From: an uncultured Bacteroidales bacterium
GTDB lineage: Bacteria; Bacteroidota; Bacteroidia; Bacteroidales; UBA4417
DNA: 34,661 bases
NCBI GenBank assembly: GCA_903913645.1
Contig: CAIWMA010000342.1
Location: 1 to 34,661 of the forward strand
Direction: 5' to 3'
The notes under the pieces were generated by a model. That model was not told where the DNA came from. It did not search any database and saw nothing but the letters and a program-made list of their open reading frames with translations. Below are positions 18,348 to 33,107 of this stretch, one piece after another. The translations under genes and the position numbers were made by a program. Positions within the stretch are counted from its first letter, which is position 1, and each line of letters opens with the position of its first letter.

Positions 18348-18710
18348 CTAACTATAAGAGTGGGTATGCGAAGTTATTTTATTTCTGTGTTTAAGCAATT
18401 CCTCAAGAAGTGCTTGTGTTGCAGCCTGAAGTTCGTTGTAGATTTCGGTTAGGCCGGCTTCAGTTTTGGTTTCTCCCATTTCCTCCAGTTTACCGCTAAG
18501 TTCTGTTGTTTCCGGGTCCATAAAATTAGCAATGGAGCCTTTTAGGTGGTGTGCGTTGAACCTGAGACTCAGGAAATCCTTATTATTGATGTTTTGTCCG
18601 ATCATTTTCAGGTCTTCCTTATGATCTTCAACAAACATGTCAATAATCTGGATTACAACATCGTTTCCGTAGTATTTGAAATTCTCGTAGAAGTTTTCCA
18701 AGTTAATCAT
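18348..18710 (-). CDS. Histidine phosphotransfer (Hpt) domain protein
   Basis: 120 aa helical protein with Hpt motif FNAHHLKGSIANF (predicted phospho-His54). Confidence 0.88.
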   Translation of the reverse strand: MINLENFYENFKYYGNDVVIQIIDMFVEDHKEDLKMIGQNINNKDFLSLRFNAHHLKGSIANFMDPETTELSGKLEEMGETKTEAGLTEIYNELQAATQALLEELLKHRNKITSHTHSYS

Positions 18711-22851: not shown

Positions 22852-25800
22852 TTACAATTTGCTGTTCATGGAATGGCATAAGAGTGCCCATTTTTCTATT
22901 CCTGTTATTACTTGCCCAATGGTTAATGGCTTACTTATATAATCATCCATCCCCGTGGCAAGGCATTTTTCCTTATCGCTCTGAAGTGCGTTTGCAGTCA
23001 TCGCAACAATTAAAGGCCTTTTATCACCCCAATTTGCAATGATCTGCCTTGTTGCTTCAAGCCCATCCATTTCCGGCATTTGGATATCCATAAATATGAT
23101 ATCGATTTTCATCCGCTTGAGTGTTTCTATAGCTTCGAGCCCATTGGCAGCAATCTGAATTGAATAGCCCAATATTTCGAAAAGACTTTGCATCATTTTT
23201 TGATTGATCGTATTGTCTTCAGCTACAAGAATATGCAAAGGAAATCGTTCATTCAATTTTTCCAAAGGTTTCTGATCAAGGTGGGGTTGTTTTGTAACAT
23301 TATTCTGAACAGAAAGCAGGTTTGAAACCAGTGCAAGAAGTTGCGAATGTTTAAGCGGTTTGTTGATTTGGGAATTAAAATTTTGATAAATAGCTGGTTC
23401 CAAACCCGAAATGGTAGGATGTGAGACCAGAATCATCGGAATATCCATATTTTTCAATTTGTTCTGGAGTTCAGATGACAATATTGTTTCAGCCTCGTCT
23501 ACAATAGAATTATCGATCAGAATAAGATCAAAATGATTCTTTTTCTTTAACAATTCTGACATGTCAACACCTGAATTTGCAATTGTTGAATGCATTCCTG
23601 TTCCTGTAAACAGATTGAAAAGGATTGTGCTGTTGATTAAATTACTTTCAGCAATCAGAATGCGTTTTCCTTTCAACTGATTTCCTCCGGAATGTGAAAA
23701 TCCTACTGTACTGATGTCATTTCTATAGATTGTTTTGATAGTAAACAGGAATTCTGACCCGTTTTTTATTTCCTTGTTGACCCAGATATTCCCTTTCATT
23801 AATGTTACAAGTTTGGCGCTTATAGCTAATCCAAGGCCTGTACCGCCGTATTTTCGGGTTGTTGACGCATCAACCTGGCTGAAAGGTTTAAAAAGCCGTT
23901 CAGCTTTTTCTTCGGGTATACCTATTCCTGTATCTCTGACTGAAAACTGAAGGAGAGCATCATTTCCTCTTTTCTCAATCTGCATGACGCGGATGAGAAC
24001 CTCGCCTTTAGTTGTGAATTTAATAGCATTTCCGACCAGATTCACCAAGATTTGACGAAGCCGGGTCAAATCACCGACTATCTTTTCAGGAATTGCCGAA
24101 TCTACCTCAAAATACAAACCGAGATGTTTTTTTGATGCCGAAGTAGCTGTGAGGTCAAGTACGTCTTCTATTGCCGACCTTAAGTTGAAGCTATGTTCTT
24201 CAAGAACCATTTTCCCGGATTCGATTTTTGAAAAATCAAGGATATCATTGATCAGGTCAAGTAATAATTCGCCACTGGTTTTTATGGTTTCGGTGTACTC
24301 ACGCTGATCATAAGTCAGTGGTGTTTGCATCAAAAGGCTTGTCATACCAATTACTCCATTCATCGGAGTACGTATTTCGTGGCTCATGGTTGCCAGGAAT
24401 TCCGATTTAGTTTGTGTTGCATGTTCCGCAATATGCCTAGCTTCGATTAATTCGTTTTCAATATTTCTTCTCGAAATTCTCCCTCCAATGCTTGCTGCAA
24501 GGGCGTTGAGCAGCGAAGATTCGTTGTTCGACCAATGTATACCTTTTGTACAATCATCAAAACCCACCATTCCCCATAGCTTGTTATGCACAAAAATAGG
24601 TACAGCAATTAATGAAAGGATATCTTGTGCTTCCAATAAATGACGTTCTTTTTCAGGGAAATTTTGTACAAGGCCAGAAACAGCTTTCCCTGCTTTCAGT
24701 AATTTGTACCATCGGGGGAAACCTTCGCTGAAAGGGAGGTTCTGAAGATCCTGGTTGTCGATTTGAGGGAGCACTCCTTCGGCAACCCATTCAAATCGCT
24801 GGCTAAAAAAGGATTCGCCGGTTAGTTCGTCTTCTGTATTTTCAAAAATATAAACACGATCAACACTCGTTGCTGAACCAATTGCTTCAAGTGCCTGCTG
24901 AATGGCGGAATCATGATCAGGAATAGTCAGCAGGAAGTTCATGGCCATAGCCGTACCGTTGAGTATTTCACTCTGGCGGTACAAATCCCGTTCATTGTTT
25001 TTTCGCTGTGTAATATTTCTGTATATCCAAAGCAAACCCTGGTTTCTCATATCCGGGTCTACAATTGGGATGAAATCACGTTCGAGGTAGGTTCCGTTAA
25101 CCATTTTTAGTTCATGATCGGTGATAATTTTCCGGACTAAAAGGCTTTTATTGATATCATTGATAAAACTGTCAGGATCAGAAAAAAGGTTCTTAGACGT
25201 TTCTGCAGCCAGTTCGCAATCCATCCCAACCAATTTATCAGGCGTTACCGGAATTGAAAATATATCACAGAACTGCTGGTTAACCAGTACGACTTTTCGT
25301 TCTTCATCTTCTACCATCACTCCGGACTGCATACTCGAAATAAGCGAACGGAACCTGAGATTTGCAATCTGAAGTGCATCGTATTGTGCCTTACGCAGGG
25401 TTATATCTTCGGCCATCGCCAGAAAGCCTTTTACCTGGTTGAGTTCGTTGCGTAAAGCCGTTACTGTAAGTGACACCGGGAATTTACTCCTATCTTTGCG
25501 AACAAAAATAAATTCTCCGGTTTCTGTGAAAATATTTTTAGGTTCTGTCCCAACCGATATTTTAAAAATTTGCATATTCCTAAATTCTTGGGCCGTGCTG
25601 TGTTGTGCTATTTGCCGGATATCCATTTCATCGTGAAATAAATGAGGTGTCATTAGCCCTATTACTTCTTCAGGTTCGTAGCCAAGCATTTTAGTGGCCG
25701 AAGGATTAAAAGATTGAATTATTCCATTTAGGTCTGTCGAAACTATTGCAATAGCGGAACTGTTGAGTATGGCTTTCTGGAATGTAGTTGTTTTGATCAA

Positions 25801-27009
25801 TACCTGTTCGATTTCCTTTTCTTTGGTGATTTCTTTCTGTATTGAAATGAAATTTTCCAACCACCCTTTCGAATCGAATACTGGCTGTATCTGCACCTTT
25901 ATCCAATACTTTTTGTGTGATTTGGAATAATTGATAATATCAACTTCAATAGCCTTTTCATTCTTTAGGGCTTCAGAGATTAGTGCAACTGTATTCTGAT
26001 CTGTTTCCTCTCCCTGGAGGAAATCTCCTGGTGCTAATCCTTTTACCTCTTCAAACGAATACCCAGTAAGTTGTGTAAATGCATCATTTACCCATTCTAT
26101 CTTCCCTGTTTTGTCAGATAAAATAATAGAATTGCCGGTTTCTCGGGCAATAAGGGCCATTTTTTTTAGCTCGTTTTCTGCATGTTTCCGCCCTGTAATA
26201 TCCTGGCCATACAAATTAAAGTATGTTGTACCTTCAACAGGAGCAAAAAGAAATGAATAAATCGATTTGCCATCAGTTATTTCACGCTCAACCGGTTTTC
26301 CGGATGCTGATAATTCGGAGATTGCAGCCAGAAAATCATTACTCACTGTTTCCCCTTCTTTAAAGCCATGATGCGACAGCAATTGATAACTTGCTTTATT
26401 GGCGAACAATAAAATATTGTCGTGACTGATCCTCAGAATGGGATTTGGGCTTTCATTCGGAATTTTAGAAAGATTTAATATCTGCTCATTTGCTGTTTTT
26501 AAAAGGGTTTGATTCAATATTTTACCATAAAGAACACCAGCCATATTACTAATAAAAGAAAGGACTGCAATATCATCATCGTTGAATGCATTTGGTTTTG
26601 TATCTACAATTCCGAAGGTCCCAACCGCTTCTTCTCCGTTCATTACAGGTAGATATAAGCGCGAACGAATCTCAAAAGAGCGTTTGCTGGATATGGTGAG
26701 TTTTTGATTATCAAGCAAAGTGTCTGGAATATGAATCATTTGCTTCGATCGATAGACCATGCCTGGATGCCTGTCAATAGCAGTCTGTTCAGCATCTAGA
26801 AATTCTTCTTCATTAAATCCTTTTGCATAGAGAAGCCTTAACCTGCCTTCTGAAGGAACAAAGAGATAAAGCCCGGTGTGTTCAACAGCGAATACATCTT
26901 CCAGTATTTCTTCTACAGATTGCACCAATTCATCCAGGGTACCGATTCCGGAAAAGGCCGCTGCAAACTTATCTAACTGTTTAATAACTTGTATATAAGA
27001 TATATTCAT
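22852..27009 (-). CDS. Soluble hybrid sensor histidine kinase: GAF, multiple PAS, GAF, HisKA, HATPase_c, degenerate REC, canonical REC
   Basis: H-box FLATMSHEIRTPMNGVIGM; N box LVNLVGNAIKFT; G boxes DTGIGIPEE, GGTGLGLAIS; C-terminal REC ILVAEDN...IIFMDIQMPEMDG...YISKPL; no obvious transmembrane segment. Confidence 0.95.
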   Translation of the reverse strand: MNISYIQVIKQLDKFAAAFSGIGTLDELVQSVEEILEDVFAVEHTGLYLFVPSEGRLRLLYAKGFNEEEFLDAEQTAIDRHPGMVYRSKQMIHIPDTLLDNQKLTISSKRSFEIRSRLYLPVMNGEEAVGTFGIVDTKPNAFNDDDIAVLSFISNMAGVLYGKILNQTLLKTANEQILNLSKIPNESPNPILRISHDNILLFANKASYQLLSHHGFKEGETVSNDFLAAISELSASGKPVEREITDGKSIYSFLFAPVEGTTYFNLYGQDITGRKHAENELKKMALIARETGNSIILSDKTGKIEWVNDAFTQLTGYSFEEVKGLAPGDFLQGEETDQNTVALISEALKNEKAIEVDIINYSKSHKKYWIKVQIQPVFDSKGWLENFISIQKEITKEKEIEQVLIKTTTFQKAILNSSAIAIVSTDLNGIIQSFNPSATKMLGYEPEEVIGLMTPHLFHDEMDIRQIAQHSTAQEFRNMQIFKISVGTEPKNIFTETGEFIFVRKDRSKFPVSLTVTALRNELNQVKGFLAMAEDITLRKAQYDALQIANLRFRSLISSMQSGVMVEDEERKVVLVNQQFCDIFSIPVTPDKLVGMDCELAAETSKNLFSDPDSFINDINKSLLVRKIITDHELKMVNGTYLERDFIPIVDPDMRNQGLLWIYRNITQRKNNERDLYRQSEILNGTAMAMNFLLTIPDHDSAIQQALEAIGSATSVDRVYIFENTEDELTGESFFSQRFEWVAEGVLPQIDNQDLQNLPFSEGFPRWYKLLKAGKAVSGLVQNFPEKERHLLEAQDILSLIAVPIFVHNKLWGMVGFDDCTKGIHWSNNESSLLNALAASIGGRISRRNIENELIEARHIAEHATQTKSEFLATMSHEIRTPMNGVIGMTSLLMQTPLTYDQREYTETIKTSGELLLDLINDILDFSKIESGKMVLEEHSFNLRSAIEDVLDLTATSASKKHLGLYFEVDSAIPEKIVGDLTRLRQILVNLVGNAIKFTTKGEVLIRVMQIEKRGNDALLQFSVRDTGIGIPEEKAERLFKPFSQVDASTTRKYGGTGLGLAISAKLVTLMKGNIWVNKEIKNGSEFLFTIKTIYRNDISTVGFSHSGGNQLKGKRILIAESNLINSTILFNLFTGTGMHSTIANSGVDMSELLKKKNHFDLILIDNSIVDEAETILSSELQNKLKNMDIPMILVSHPTISGLEPAIYQNFNSQINKPLKHSQLLALVSNLLSVQNNVTKQPHLDQKPLEKLNERFPLHILVAEDNTINQKMMQSLFEILGYSIQIAANGLEAIETLKRMKIDIIFMDIQMPEMDGLEATRQIIANWGDKRPLIVAMTANALQSDKEKCLATGMDDYISKPLTIGQVITGIEKWALLCHSMNSKL

Positions 27010-27011
27010 TG

Positions 27012-27440
27012 CTATGGCATCTCATTATATAGTTTGATAGCAGCTTTTACGCATTCCTCATCCTGTTTGTAGTGCCCTCCACTGATGCCGATGGCACCTA
27101 TAACCGAATTATCTTCAATTACAGGCGAACCACCCCCTAGCAAAATAAAATCCCTGAATTGCTGGATCCCATTGAACAAAATAGGGTCATCCTTAATGAT
27201 TTCATACCAACTATCTCCGCTTGGTATTCCGTAACTAACAGCTGTTATAGCCTTCTTTCTTGAAGCATCAATAGTTACTAGAGCGGCATAGTCCATTTTG
27301 AAAAATGCCTTTAATACCCCACTTTCATCAACAAATGTGATGGCTATCTTTATTCCTAGTTCATCTGCCTTCCGGATAGCAGCATCTGCCATTAACAAAC
27401 AGGAGGTATAACTAATACTTGATTTGTTGATAAATTTCAT
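27012..27440 (-). CDS. HbpS/GlcG-family (heme-binding-like) protein
   Basis: ORF 27012-27476; alternative ATG at 27440. Motifs ADELGIKIAITFVDESGVLKAFFKMDYA, SRKKAITAVSYGIPS, GGGSPVIEDNSVIGAIGISGGHYKQDEECVKAAI. Ends 2 nt before the kinase start. Confidence 0.85.
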   Translation of the reverse strand: MKFINKSSISYTSCLLMADAAIRKADELGIKIAITFVDESGVLKAFFKMDYAALVTIDASRKKAITAVSYGIPSGDSWYEIIKDDPILFNGIQQFRDFILLGGGSPVIEDNSVIGAIGISGGHYKQDEECVKAAIKLYNEMP

Positions 27441-28003
27441 TATACATAAATTAAGATATATTTTACGAAAATACAAATTTTGAGTACAGCAGATACTGTT
27501 TTATGCATTTATTTCTATTTTAAATTGCCTCAATTAACCCTGTTTGATTCATAATCCGAAGCACTTAATTAGAATGATCGATGAATTAAAATAAATAAAA
27601 ATCTAAATAATTTTACATCATAGTCAATAAATGCCAATCTTTGTATCGTTAAATTGACGATTCTTAAAAGTTTGCTTGATCAATTCGTGTCTGAAGGGAA
27701 TCTTTAGTCCCCTAAAAATTGCCAAATTCTATGTTAATCAGTAAGAACTTTTTTGAATTTCACATTACTTTTCGTTTGCTAGCATTTTAACTTATTAATT
27801 GTTTTTTATAATAAACATGCTGGTAGTAAGTTGTTATGCACTTCTATGTTAGAAGGTTTCTTAAATGAATTAGATGATTTGGTTTAGTTAGTACAAAAGT
27901 GAAGAGGAAATTCGTAATAATGTAAAAAAAACATATATTTTGTATTACAATTACCATAAATGTTAATCAACAAATATAGAGAAAGTTGTTTTTAGAGGGA
28001 AGT

Positions 28004-28167: not shown

Positions 28168-28554
28168 ATGAAGCACAAAATTCTTATTATCGACGACGAA
28201 AGGAGTATTCGCTTGTTACTGGAGAGTTTTCTATCTAAGAATTACGATGTAGTAAGTAAAAGTGATGGGATGGAGGCCCTGGATTGGCTTGAAGCAAATT
28301 TACCCGATCTGATTATTTGTGATGTTCAGATGCCAAATATGGACGGATATAAGTTTGTTGAAAAGGTGCGTCAGCGGGGATATACCAAACATACTCCTAT
28401 TGTAATGCTATCAGGTGTTGAAAGCAGTAAAGAACGTGTTAAATGTTACAAACTCGGCGCACAGGACTTTTTGGCCAAACCTTTCAATCCGGAAGAATTG
28501 GACGAAATTCTTAAAAAGAACCTTTTTCCGGTTCATTATGCCGTTAAATGGTGA
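28168..28554 (+). CDS. Stand-alone response regulator receiver
   Basis: KILIIDDE; DLIICDVQMPNMDG (Asp52); IVMLSG; DFLAKPF; no output domain. Confidence 0.93.
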   Translation: MKHKILIIDDERSIRLLLESFLSKNYDVVSKSDGMEALDWLEANLPDLIICDVQMPNMDGYKFVEKVRQRGYTKHTPIVMLSGVESSKERVKCYKLGAQDFLAKPFNPEELDEILKKNLFPVHYAVKW

Positions 28555-28618: not shown

Positions 28619-29818
28619 ATGGAAAAAGTGTTAAAACTTGTTTATATAGGAAACTCAAAAGGACCTATAGAAATGTTGAGTGCAAATGAGCATTTATCAA
28701 TTACCGTTCAACGCAATACGCTTGCAGCAGAAATTTACCTTAAATCGGGTCAGATACCTGATGCAATATTATGCGAAATGACTTTGTCGGGAGGTGATGG
28801 TATACGGATGCACGAATGGGTTCGCCAAAGAAAAGAACTGAACCACGTAAGTTTCATGCTTGTTACCCACGAATTTAAAGAAGACCTCTACAAAGAAGCA
28901 TTTAAAAGACGGATAGATGATTATTTTGTGATACCGTTGCAGAAAGTGGAAAGCCTGATTGGCAGGATTGAGTATCTGAAAGAATACAGGTTAAAAATTG
29001 TTCCTCTTGAGCCTGAACTGGAGCGTGAGATTACCTACCATATGCCGTTATCTAAACGTATTTTTGATATTTTGATGGCTAGCACTGCACTTATCGTTCT
29101 GTCACCTCTTTTGTTGCTGGTAATGCTTGCTATCCGGATTGAATCAAAAGGAAAGGTTTATTACACTTCCCGTCGGGTAGGCAGGGTTCCTTTCGATTTT
29201 TATAAACTCCGGTCTATGCGCCAGGGAGCGGATGCTGACCTGGCAAAGCTGGCAAAAGATAAAAATCAATATAATACAGCATCCGAAAAGTCCGAAATAG
29301 ATTTCGGGATACGATGTGAGGAGTGCAGTAAATTACCTGAGGGTAAATTCTGCTCTCCAATAATTCATATAGGAACACACGATATTTGTGAGAGTTCCTA
29401 TCATCGCCAGAAGAAAGAAATTGATAAATCAAAATCAGCATTTATTAAAATTGTAAACGATCCGCGTATTACCAAGGTTGGGAAAATTATCCGAAATACC
29501 AGTATCGACGAGCTTCCCCAACTCATCAACGTGATAAAAGGAGATATGTCCATTGTCGGCAATCGTCCGTTACCTGTTTATGAAGCAGAGCAAATAACAA
29601 AAGGGGATATGTCAAGGCGGTTTCTTGCACCGGCAGGAATAACCGGACTTTGGCAGGTTGAACTTAGGGGAAAAGGAGGTGATATGTCGGAAGAGGAACG
29701 AAAGCGGCTTGACAATGTTTATTCGGATCACTTCATAGGGCGTAATTATTCCTTCTGGTACGACTTTAAGCTTATCCTTCGCACGTTCAGGGCGCTATTT
29801 CAGAAGGATACCGTCTGA
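28619..29818 (+). CDS. Pseudo-receiver fused to bacterial sugar transferase (polyisoprenyl-phosphate hexose-1-phosphate transferase)
   Basis: C-terminal: MPLSKRIFDILMASTALIVLSPLLLLVMLAIRIESKGKVYYTSRRVGRVPFDFYKLRSM...DPRITKVGKIIRNTSIDELPQLINVIKGDMSIVGNRPLP...GITGLWQVELRGK. N-terminal: PDAILCEMTLSGGDGIRMHEWVRQR...DDYFVIPL aligns with receivers. Confidence 0.88.
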   Translation: MEKVLKLVYIGNSKGPIEMLSANEHLSITVQRNTLAAEIYLKSGQIPDAILCEMTLSGGDGIRMHEWVRQRKELNHVSFMLVTHEFKEDLYKEAFKRRIDDYFVIPLQKVESLIGRIEYLKEYRLKIVPLEPELEREITYHMPLSKRIFDILMASTALIVLSPLLLLVMLAIRIESKGKVYYTSRRVGRVPFDFYKLRSMRQGADADLAKLAKDKNQYNTASEKSEIDFGIRCEECSKLPEGKFCSPIIHIGTHDICESSYHRQKKEIDKSKSAFIKIVNDPRITKVGKIIRNTSIDELPQLINVIKGDMSIVGNRPLPVYEAEQITKGDMSRRFLAPAGITGLWQVELRGKGGDMSEEERKRLDNVYSDHFIGRNYSFWYDFKLILRTFRALFQKDTV

Positions 29819-29840: not shown

Positions 29841-30587
29841 ATGAAATTTCTACAATTTATACTTGTTTTAGGTTTGAGTAGTTTCTATCTGGGCTCAGCT
29901 ATAGCGCAAGATGTAAAACCGATACCCCCCCGATTGCTTTACGACAGTATCTCTATTCCTCCGTTGAGTGTGATGATCGATTCGGCAATTGCTCATAATG
30001 CGATGCTAACATATTTTGAGCATGGTATTCAGGTGAAAAAAATAAGTCTGGCAATAGATCAGAAAAACTGGACAAAGAATTTTGGGGTCCAGGCTGATGT
30101 GCGGTACGGGACATTTGATAACTTTTCGACAAACACAGCAGAAGGCCAAAACCCGTCTTTAATAGCAACAAAAACCAATCAGACCAACTATGGGATTGGC
30201 GGATATCTGAAACTTCCTCTTTCGGATTTTGTAAATCGAAAGAACCAGATTAAACTGGCCAGGACCGAGGTTGATCAGGCTCAGAGTATGGCTGAAGTTC
30301 AACGTGATCAAATTAGGCAAATGGTTATCAAACAATATAATGATTTGATTTTGAAACAATCTCTGTTGAAGATAAAGGCCAAAAACCTGGAAACTTCAAG
30401 AATAAACATGGTAATGGCGGAAAAAGAATTTCAAAATGGAGTAATACCACTTGGCACATATTCAAGCATGTCAGAAACAGCCGGTAACACAGAAATTAAT
30501 TTTGAAGAAGCGAAAGTTGATTTCAAAACCGCATATATGATTCTTGAAGAATTGGTAGGATTTAAATTCAATTTAAAAATACAATAA
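29841..30587 (+). CDS. Half-length TolC/outer-membrane-efflux-like protein
   Basis: Signal peptide ending AIAQ; PLSDFVNRKNQIKLARTEVDQAQSMAEVQRDQIRQMVIKQYNDLILKQSLLKIKAKNLETSRINMVMAEKEFQNGVIPLGTYSSM resembles one TolC repeat; only 248 aa. Confidence 0.65.
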   Translation: MKFLQFILVLGLSSFYLGSAIAQDVKPIPPRLLYDSISIPPLSVMIDSAIAHNAMLTYFEHGIQVKKISLAIDQKNWTKNFGVQADVRYGTFDNFSTNTAEGQNPSLIATKTNQTNYGIGGYLKLPLSDFVNRKNQIKLARTEVDQAQSMAEVQRDQIRQMVIKQYNDLILKQSLLKIKAKNLETSRINMVMAEKEFQNGVIPLGTYSSMSETAGNTEINFEEAKVDFKTAYMILEELVGFKFNLKIQ

Positions 30588-30596
30588 ACTACGCGA

Positions 30597-33107
30597 ATGA
30601 AGGTAATTGATTTTATAAGGATACTGCGAAGGCATATTGTTTTATTGGTTGTTATTCCATTTGTTCTGGCAGTAATGGTAACCTATATGACAAGGAAACC
30701 TGATCTGAAGTTCGATTCGGAAACTACTCTATATACCGGAATAGCAACTGGTTCAAGCGTTGAGATGGATAAAGCAATTAACTCACTGGCTTCAAATACA
30801 TCATTTGATAACCTGATTAACGTGATTAAGTCGCGCGAAACTCAGCAGGAAGTTGCAATAAGATTGCTTACCCAGCACCTTTTACTCGATAAAGCTGATT
30901 CGAGATATATTTCGGCAAAGAACTTCGCAGAACTCAAAAAAATTACACCGGCATATATTAAGCGACTCGTAGTAAAAAATACCAGTCCGTCAGGTCAAAA
31001 GGCCCTTGCGAATGTGTCTCAGGATGAAAATTCCAAAGCTGATACTTCAGCAGCAAATAAAACCTTTTCTTTTCAAGCAGAAGATGATTCAACAAAACCT
31101 TCCTGGCTCCCAGCTTCTATAAATCAGATTGCTTATGAAGAGACAGTAAAGAATCTGACTGATTATATGCAAAGCAGCGACACCAATTTCATATATAAAC
31201 TGTTGAATTTTTCGCATCCGCATTATTCTATTAGTGCTATATCAACAGTTAAAGCGCAACGAATTGGTATTAGTGATCTTGTGAGTTTAAAATACGAAAC
31301 CGACGATCCGGCAATTTGTCAGCAAACATTGGAATTCCTTACGCAGGTCTGTATAAAAAATTACAGGAGCTTTAAAGAGAATCGTTCAGATGCCGTTGTA
31401 AAATATTTTGAATTTCAGTTAAAACAGGCTGCAATCAGACTTACCATTGCAGAAGATAAGTTGTTGAAATTTAACACGGATAATAATATAATAAACTACT
31501 ACGAGCAGAGTAAAGCTGTTGCAGGTGTCAAAGAGCAGTTAGATCTTGATTTCAATAGCAAAAAAGTACATCTGGCCGGAGTGCAGGCCGCAATAGCGCG
31601 GCTCGAAGAAAAACTTGGAAACCAGGAGCAGATCCGGTTAAAAAGCTCAAATATAATTGAACTGAGGGATCGGTTAGGAGTACTTAGTTATAGAGTCGCA
31701 TCCCTCGAAAATAAGGATTCGATTAACTACAAAGAAATTCAAACTTTAACAGATATAAAGGCTCAGTCTGAAAAACTGAAAGATGAGATAAAAGTAGCTG
31801 TAGGCGAGTTGTATAAATATGGAAACACCACAGACGGATTACCAATCAGTTCTGTTCTTAATGATTGGATTACCAATGTGATTGATGCTGAAAACAGTAA
31901 GGCCGGCCTTGTTGTAATGGCTCAAAAAATTATAGAATTTCAGAAACAATATGCTATTTATGCCCCCGCGGGAGCGAACCTGAAGCGGATCGAAAGAGAA
32001 ATCTCTGTTGCAGAACAGGAATTCCTGGAAATATTACATGGGTTAAACCAGGCAAGACTTAAAATGCAGGACAATGAACTCTCTTCAAATCTCAAGGCTA
32101 TAGATCCACCCTATTTCCCTTTATCTCCAACTCCGACCAAACGTTCAATGCTTATTATTGTAGGTGCTTTGGTTGGTTTTCTGATAGTGCTGATTAGTGT
32201 CTTGATGATGGAATATCTTGATGAATCGCTCAACAATCCCGATAAAGCCTCCAGAATCCTTAAAATGACTGTACTGGGAATATTTCCCAAAATATTGCTG
32301 AAAGTTCAAAATACCAATTTCCTATTTATAACCAACCGTTTGCTGGAAATTGCAATTCAGAATATAGAACTCTATATCAAAGAAAGTAAATCCGAAAAAA
32401 GTACCAAGACAATATTGCTATTCAGTACATTAGGCGGTGAGGGGAAATCGGTTATTGCAGGAAACCTTGCACAAAAACTAAAATTGCAAGGGAAAAAAGT
32501 AATTGTGCTGGATTTCTCGCATGAAGCTTTGTTGAAAACGGAAACTACCCAGATTGGCTACCAGGAATCAACATCCCAAAGTAAACCTGCCTCGAAAAAC
32601 AAAGGCAAACAGCGGATGTCAATTATTGGTATGATTTTAGGTTACCCCGATTCGAGAATTGATTTCGAAAGTCCTTTTCTTGAAAATCCTGAAAAGCGGC
32701 TGGACGACGGAGAACACTTTGTTTACAATGTAAATGAAAAATTCTATTCAGCTAAAAACTACAAAGAAATTCTTGAACAGAATTCGTTTGTGTCAGCTTT
32801 TGTACCAGACTATGTTCTGATAGAATTGCCACCTATTCTATATTATCCTTACCCGGTTGCACTAGTTTCGGATGCCGATATCCCAGTGATGGTTTGCCGC
32901 GCTAACAGGGTTTGGTCCAATGCCGACCAAGTGGCTCTTGAGGTATTTATGAAGCTTACTGAACAACAAACGCATTTTATACTGAATGGGGTTGAACTTC
33001 CTGTAATTGAGTCTGTATTAGGCGATTTGCCTAAAAAAAGAAGCCTGTTTCGAAGGTTATTGAAAAAACTTTTCCGCCTCGAGTTCTATGCGAGAAACCA
33101 TATTTAA
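30597..33107 (+). CDS. Wzz/Wzc-like polysaccharide copolymerase with degenerate P-loop ATPase domain
   Basis: N-terminal TM (HIVLLVVIPFVLAVMVTYM), long coiled coil, second TM after PPYFPLSPTPTKRSMLIIVGALVGFLIVLISVLMMEY; Walker A STLGGEGKS; A'-like VIVLDFSHEA; B-like DYVLIELPP. Confidence 0.88.
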   Translation: MKVIDFIRILRRHIVLLVVIPFVLAVMVTYMTRKPDLKFDSETTLYTGIATGSSVEMDKAINSLASNTSFDNLINVIKSRETQQEVAIRLLTQHLLLDKADSRYISAKNFAELKKITPAYIKRLVVKNTSPSGQKALANVSQDENSKADTSAANKTFSFQAEDDSTKPSWLPASINQIAYEETVKNLTDYMQSSDTNFIYKLLNFSHPHYSISAISTVKAQRIGISDLVSLKYETDDPAICQQTLEFLTQVCIKNYRSFKENRSDAVVKYFEFQLKQAAIRLTIAEDKLLKFNTDNNIINYYEQSKAVAGVKEQLDLDFNSKKVHLAGVQAAIARLEEKLGNQEQIRLKSSNIIELRDRLGVLSYRVASLENKDSINYKEIQTLTDIKAQSEKLKDEIKVAVGELYKYGNTTDGLPISSVLNDWITNVIDAENSKAGLVVMAQKIIEFQKQYAIYAPAGANLKRIEREISVAEQEFLEILHGLNQARLKMQDNELSSNLKAIDPPYFPLSPTPTKRSMLIIVGALVGFLIVLISVLMMEYLDESLNNPDKASRILKMTVLGIFPKILLKVQNTNFLFITNRLLEIAIQNIELYIKESKSEKSTKTILLFSTLGGEGKSVIAGNLAQKLKLQGKKVIVLDFSHEALLKTETTQIGYQESTSQSKPASKNKGKQRMSIIGMILGYPDSRIDFESPFLENPEKRLDDGEHFVYNVNEKFYSAKNYKEILEQNSFVSAFVPDYVLIELPPILYYPYPVALVSDADIPVMVCRANRVWSNADQVALEVFMKLTEQQTHFILNGVELPVIESVLGDLPKKRSLFRRLLKKLFRLEFYARNHI

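Follow-up and report, generated by a model that had tools for sequence, protein, structure and literature searches.

What is a receiver-like domain doing at the front of a putative initiating sugar transferase, and why does an ordinary receiver gene lie directly upstream of it? This question is raised by an open reading frame at positions 28619-29818 (forward strand) of the window, i.e., the whole 34,661-nucleotide stretch of DNA from an uncultured Bacteroidales bacterium that we analyzed. The frame encodes a 399-amino-acid protein whose N-terminal ~126 residues resemble the single-domain receiver (SD-RR) encoded at 28168-28554. An earlier note, made from the sequence alone, had described this protein as a pseudo-receiver fused to the sugar transferase initiating exopolysaccharide (EPS) synthesis. 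Direct reading confirmed its account of the frame, the coordinates and the replaced residues (Glu53, YIGN in place of IDDE, Ile in place of Lys), and the fusion itself is borne out by the comparisons described below.

A receiver-like domain is joined to a putative monotopic phosphoglycosyl transferase

The C-terminal part of the protein (residues 143-399; 29045-29818, forward strand) matched the Pfam Bac_transf domain with an E-value of 2.6e-51 and, in Foldseek, PglC (8g1n) and WbaP (8t53). It contains an Asp297-Glu298 catalytic dyad (29507-29512, forward strand), and this DE pair is kept in 133 of 136 family members. Judged by the Bac_transf domain and the dyad, this part is a monotopic phosphoglycosyl transferase (monoPGT), which makes the whole protein a putative sugar-phosphate transferase; helix 144-175 is likely a re-entrant membrane helix, as predicted by AlphaFold2. 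Large monoPGTs of the WbaP/EpsZ type consist of an N-terminal four-helix transmembrane bundle and a cytoplasmic DUF, followed by the catalytic domain. This layout was not found here, as in the AlphaFold2 model the N-terminal 126 residues form a receiver fold and are followed by a short linker. We also considered that the N-terminal domain could be a worn CoA_binding_3 domain of large PGTs, and rejected this idea, as there was no such Pfam match and Foldseek led to receivers.

The Bac_transf match is split in two around an insert of ~65 amino acids (29237-29431, forward strand). Its cysteines C233-x2-C236, C245 and C257 (29315-29389 in the window) occur either all four together or not at all (104 versus 32 of 136 members), which suggests a possible metal-binding knuckle in the catalytic part. 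Second, tandem copies of the gene occur in three relatives that belong to the same genus as the window (L012:4127-5314, L013:4030-5226 and L014:3758-4936); in these copies the Asp-Glu dyad is changed to DR or EK and the QKDTV-like C-terminal tail is lost; these are probably pseudo-enzymes that retain the pseudo-receiver and an SD-RR of their own.

The N-terminal domain has a predicted receiver fold and a lost phosphorylation pocket

The match of the N-terminal domain (residues 1-126; 28619-28996, forward strand) to Pfam Response_reg is sub-threshold (28.5 bits, E 1.8e-6, with a curated cut-off of 30.2). When a profile of 136 such domains from the family was compared with one built from the receivers encoded upstream of them, the probability was 99.7 and the E-value 8e-26, and the receiver resemblance is beyond chance despite the low Pfam score. 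The AlphaFold2 model, based on an alignment of 104 members, has the (beta-alpha)5 topology with pLDDT mostly of 95-98 in this domain (89.9 overall). Foldseek placed the modelled domain close to solved receivers, with target TM-scores of about 0.78-0.85, and the matches include BeF3-activated PhoB and the PhoB D10A/D53E variant (2jb9); the best NCBIfam match is the second receiver of PleD. Residues 1-126 are, by prediction, a receiver (REC) fold. Structure prediction had been proposed in the earlier note as a check, and it gave a receiver rather than a non-receiver fold. The orientation of the receiver relative to the catalytic part is modelled with a pTM of 0.69, compatible with an error of ~12 A.

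The codon at 28775-28777 (forward strand) is GAA, and it places Glu53 at the phospho-Asp site. The acidic pair is replaced, with YIGN (residues 9-12) standing where the upstream receiver has IDDE, and Ile105 (28931-28933, forward strand) faces Lys104 of that receiver; a lysine is found at this position in only 11 of 106 members. The full phosphorylation pocket was present in none of the 106. Recognizable as a receiver and devoid of phosphotransfer residues as far as its sequence tells, the N-terminal domain is classed as a pseudo-receiver (PsR), or Asp-less receiver (ALR). It does retain the switch residue T83, which was absent from the earlier note, as were the preserved D101 and R116 and the conservation of the arrangement across a family. 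Two proteins of another class, L163 and L164, have less decayed forms of the domain, with the beta1 acid and the Lys kept and Glu at the phospho-site.

Pseudo-receiver monoPGTs with an upstream SD-RR are a conserved family in Bacteroidota

The upstream gene (28168-28554, forward strand) encodes an SD-RR of 128 amino acids with a full pocket (D9, D10, D52, S82 and K104; Pfam Response_reg 4e-31), whose closest solved relative is the first receiver of PleD. In the window, the SD-RR and the monoPGT are separate genes and are not in one frame. Homologues were sought in genomes of the phylum Bacteroidota, its class, its order and several families, flanks were taken for 118 loci, and 110 distinct proteins with the N-terminal domain were collected first and 32 more later, which gave 142 from Bacteroidota, 140 of them judgeable. 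Of these 140, 137 have an SD-RR gene directly upstream in the same orientation. In the first set, 106 of the 110 had such a gene (~120-170 amino acids), usually at most 70 nt away or overlapping; among the remaining four, L108 and L153 have no receiver, that of L087 is truncated where the contig stops, and L089 itself begins at a contig end. Thirty of the 32 in the second set had an SD-RR, one lay at a contig end and one had none. Altogether, an adjoining SD-RR was missing in L108, L153 and L235, which counts against the switch that we propose below. Named hosts from a separate scan include Algibacter pacificus and several Bacteroidales MAGs. Thus, the pseudo-receiver monoPGT with its upstream SD-RR is a conserved family in Bacteroidota, and the idea that the domain pairs with the adjacent true receiver, which the earlier note had raised, gained strong comparative support and became the leading one.

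Relatives from the same PGT subfamily that have no N-terminal domain were accompanied by an adjacent SD-RR in only 3 of 15 cases. The raw contrast (137/140 versus 3/15) is strong, but its rows share descent. On the catalytic-domain tree, the N-terminal domain changes about six times and, where it is lost, the receiver is mostly lost as well, and the two well-supported independent pairs found there are too few for significance. No receiver was seen within the short upstream flanks of 19 loci of other PGT types. Two observations argue for a switch composed of both proteins: one is this near-obligate pairing, and the other is a division of labor, as the full pocket is present in 101 of 106 SD-RRs versus 0 of 106 pseudo-receivers.

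Some members depart from this pattern. In L168, L169 and L183 the upstream SD-RR itself has Glu at the phospho-Asp position, so that both partners would be unphosphorylatable there. Two PGTs (L170:3998-4774 and L171:3983-4759) follow an SD-RR and yet have no N-terminal domain, and in L170 a kinase-REC-Hpt fusion gene precedes the SD-RR; these two loci may have more in common with EpsW/EpsZ, discussed below.

Conserved residues and a docking model point to a probable pairing of the two proteins

The most conserved residue of the pseudo-receiver is Asp101 in beta5 (28919-28921, forward strand; D in 115 and E in 11 of 136, D/E 126), followed by Arg116 in alpha5 (28964-28966, forward strand; R in 118 and K in 4 of 136, R/K 122), and both outrank the hydrophobic core in information content. 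From alignment to the KdpE and PhoB sequences, we take these residues to be the equivalents of KdpE D97 and R111. In KdpE, D97-R111 is an inter-subunit salt bridge of the alpha4-beta5-alpha5 dimer of the OmpR/PhoB family (PMC4773095). The SD-RRs retain matching charges (D100 in 124, R/K90 in 134 and E110 in 133 of 136), and these charges, together with the conservation of D101 and R116 and their correspondence to the KdpE pair, speak for pairing between the two proteins. A point against it comes from the window itself, where the SD-RR residue at the Arg114 position is Ile.

In 33 loci both genes are in one frame, and these were translated through their stop codons as single chains and used as docking input. 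AlphaFold2 run on this paired read-through alignment (L010 first) gave a pTM of 0.80, with the 29-residue joint disordered. About 0.47-0.5 is expected when the mutual orientation is unknown, and 0.80 corresponds to an error of ~3 A, but this value has to be read bearing in mind that the chains were covalently joined, that AlphaFold2 is prone to joining receivers as well as chains that are covalently linked, and that receiver dimers are frequent in its training data. The model predicts a definite SD-RR:pseudo-receiver interface and counts in favor of pairing, not as proof of it. Both domains of the tandem model align to PleD (rmsd 10.3 over 244 residues), and the PleD orientation is not reproduced. 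A partial Mantel test gave further support, as the SD-RR and pseudo-receiver distances were correlated with the catalytic domain removed (0.40; 0 of 999 permutations); since SD-RR distances correlate equally with those of the catalytic domain (0.42), this correlation is possibly co-inheritance. Mean-field direct coupling analysis of 136 SD-RR/pseudo-receiver pairs (Neff 98) revealed no interpretable interface, which counts against the proposal.

We propose that the locus would be a two-protein switch acting on the first committed step of EPS synthesis. The 28168 protein would be a normal SD-RR, phosphorylatable by a histidine kinase or a phosphorelay, and the pseudo-receiver would have lost the phosphorylation chemistry and kept the receiver dimerization face (alpha4-beta5-alpha5). 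Upon phosphorylation, the SD-RR would pair with the pseudo-receiver of the monoPGT, and this could alter either the seating of the pseudo-receiver on the catalytic part or the pairing of two enzymes; as a result, sugar-phosphate transfer to the lipid carrier would be switched, most likely on. To the core of this proposal, i.e., that the committing step of EPS synthesis is gated by the phosphorylated SD-RR through its pairing with the pseudo-receiver, we assign a probability of roughly 60%. It is built on the observed loss of the pocket, the near-obligate gene pairing and the conserved interface residues, and on the predicted fold and docking; from these we infer that the two proteins physically bind, that they do so depending on phosphorylation, and in which direction the enzyme is affected.

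One could also imagine that the pseudo-receiver is a homodimerization module which holds two enzyme molecules together, in the manner of the WbaP cytoplasmic domain, and that the SD-RR simply shares the operon and has its target elsewhere, e.g., a kinase or transcription. D101 and R116 would serve equally well to hold two pseudo-receivers together (or to form a contact within one), and a cytoplasmic domain does dimerize large monoPGTs; for small monoPGTs, however, monomers suffice (PMC12802240). Homodimerization also leaves unexplained why the SD-RR accompanies enzymes with the N-terminal domain and rarely those without it, and we regard this explanation as unlikely.

Glutamate at position 53 is frequent and not defining

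It was suggested in the earlier note that Glu53 acts as a phosphomimetic; in such a case it would lock the domain in its active shape, the enzyme would always be on, and the true receiver would compete. On one hand, Glu is the commonest residue at position 53 (61 of 106 members, 58%) and exceeds the 26% found among Asp-less receivers generally, where it is the commonest replacement as well (PMC4395418), and PhoB D10A/D53E, an engineered protein described as constitutively active and one of the Foldseek matches, resembles the natural loss of the acid combined with the D-to-E change. On the other hand, cataloguing this position, as the earlier note had advised, yielded ten residue types: 45 of the 106 members have a residue other than Glu (D in 14, and Y, N, S, Q, G, H, A or K in the rest), and there are at least 12 switches between E and non-E on the tree. 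Glu53 was thus rejected as an invariant family signature, and this variation weakens the phosphomimetic reading. Moreover, 95 of 106 members have lost the Lys, which means that the contact for a phosphomimetic Glu is gone, and for some pseudo-receivers the idea was disproved by tests of the D position (PMC12632262). While the frequency of Glu and the PhoB parallel stand, a locked-on enzyme appears very unlikely.

Binding of a small ligand, by which the pseudo-receiver would sense a second messenger or a nucleotide sugar, seems barely plausible. There is a precedent in the kinase ShkA, whose central pseudo-receiver binds c-di-GMP (PMC7010744), and the beta1 motif YIG is well conserved across the pseudo-receivers; no ligand motif was recognized in the domain, however, and the linked SD-RR would be left unexplained. 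That the domain is a relic, a decayed receiver which is neutral and tolerated, can practically be dismissed, as its fast divergence (mean information 1.36 bits versus 2.35 bits for the SD-RR) would fit this view but a confident full-length receiver fold and conserved surface residues are kept across several classes, and losses of the domain mostly accompany SD-RR loss.

Operon context and candidate sources of phosphate

The next gene of the operon (29841-30587, forward strand) encodes a short outer-membrane-efflux-like protein (Pfam OEP, 2.5e-17), and such a gene lies directly downstream in 66 of the 104 family loci with room for it. It is followed by a gene for a Wzz/PCP-like co-polymerase with a P-loop domain (30597-33107, forward strand; weak chain-length-determinant, GNVR and CbiA matches), a type of gene found at most 2.5 kb away in 71 of 104 loci. 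Both are consistent with an export-type EPS operon. The 30597-33107 protein has the P-loop GGEGKS and no tyrosine-rich tail, and it may be a BY-pseudokinase, cf. EcpK named in PMC12802240.

As for the phosphate that would drive the proposed SD-RR switch, a divergent gene for a hybrid histidine kinase (22852-27009, reverse strand; GAF/PAS, HisKA, HATPase and REC by Pfam) is a possible source, and the Hpt protein encoded at 18348-18710 (reverse strand; Pfam Hpt, 6e-10) a possible phosphorelay step, as judged from their domains. Only 14 of 97 loci have a histidine kinase gene in the 1.5 kb that precede the SD-RR. The SD-RR is hence usually an orphan, and a kinase within the same operon was ruled out as a rule. 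Between the hybrid kinase and the receiver there is a small TTG-start frame (27012-27476, reverse strand), presumably, by eye, for a GlcG/HbpS-type (DUF336) protein.

Relation to known systems and significance

The nearest tested precedent appears to be that of Myxococcus xanthus, where phosphorylated EpsW activates the large monoPGT EpsZ; our locus would also resemble the pair of receivers in PleD, but in trans. The statement in the earlier note that no characterized example was known is therefore too strong, as EpsW is a characterized receiver acting on a PGT (PMC12802240). It is further qualified by the receiver-type domains fused to small monoPGTs in the 2021 network analysis of O'Toole et al., as cited in PMC12802240, and the 28619 protein may belong to that set. 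As with EpsW and EpsZ, a single-domain receiver is encoded with the initiating monoPGT of a Wzx/Wzy pathway in an EPS locus, in the window as in the 137 of 140 judged homologues, and the kinase is usually elsewhere. EpsZ belongs to the large monoPGTs and has a transmembrane bundle and a cytoplasmic domain that is not a receiver, whereas the enzyme described here is a small monoPGT with a pseudo-receiver as the presumed docking domain; binding and stimulation by a phosphorylated SD-RR would be a candidate parallel, for which a docking is predicted.

In PleD of Caulobacter (receiver, pseudo-receiver and diguanylate cyclase), the phosphorylated receiver works through the pseudo-receiver on the enzyme (PMC12632262), and the same order of control, from receiver through pseudo-receiver to enzyme, would operate here. 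The likeness extends to sequence, the SD-RR being similar to PleD receiver 1 and the pseudo-receiver to receiver 2. Unlike in PleD, the receiver is a separate protein rather than part of one chain, and the enzyme is a membrane PGT. Both EpsW/EpsZ and PleD thus serve as precedents in favor of the proposed switch. With the bacterial pseudo-receivers, or Asp-less receivers, the domain shares a receiver fold without the phosphorylation residues and Glu as the commonest replacement (PMC12632262, PMC4395418); while the characterized ones are mostly DNA-binding or scaffold proteins, the output here is a biosynthetic enzyme, with a true receiver co-encoded. In the open-licence literature we found no study of a Bacteroidota receiver-PGT pair.

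Activation of bacterial pseudo-receivers was called a mystery in a recent review, where receiver:pseudo-receiver heterodimers are listed as a hypothesis (PMC12632262). The family described here comprises at least 137 gene pairs, a working receiver nearly always accompanying the pseudo-receiver enzyme, and since the enzyme activity is measurable, the hypothesis can now be tested directly. That the switch is Bacteroidota-wide, with the phosphorylated SD-RR heterodimerizing with the monoPGT-borne pseudo-receiver and gating sugar commitment as a two-protein, PleD-like device, we consider slightly more probable than the opposite. If true, direct receiver control of polysaccharide initiation, as conceived for EpsW and EpsZ, would extend to a second phylum and to small monoPGTs. 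The pairing with the SD-RR suggests that in many Bacteroidota the cells switch on production of their sugar coat through two receivers.
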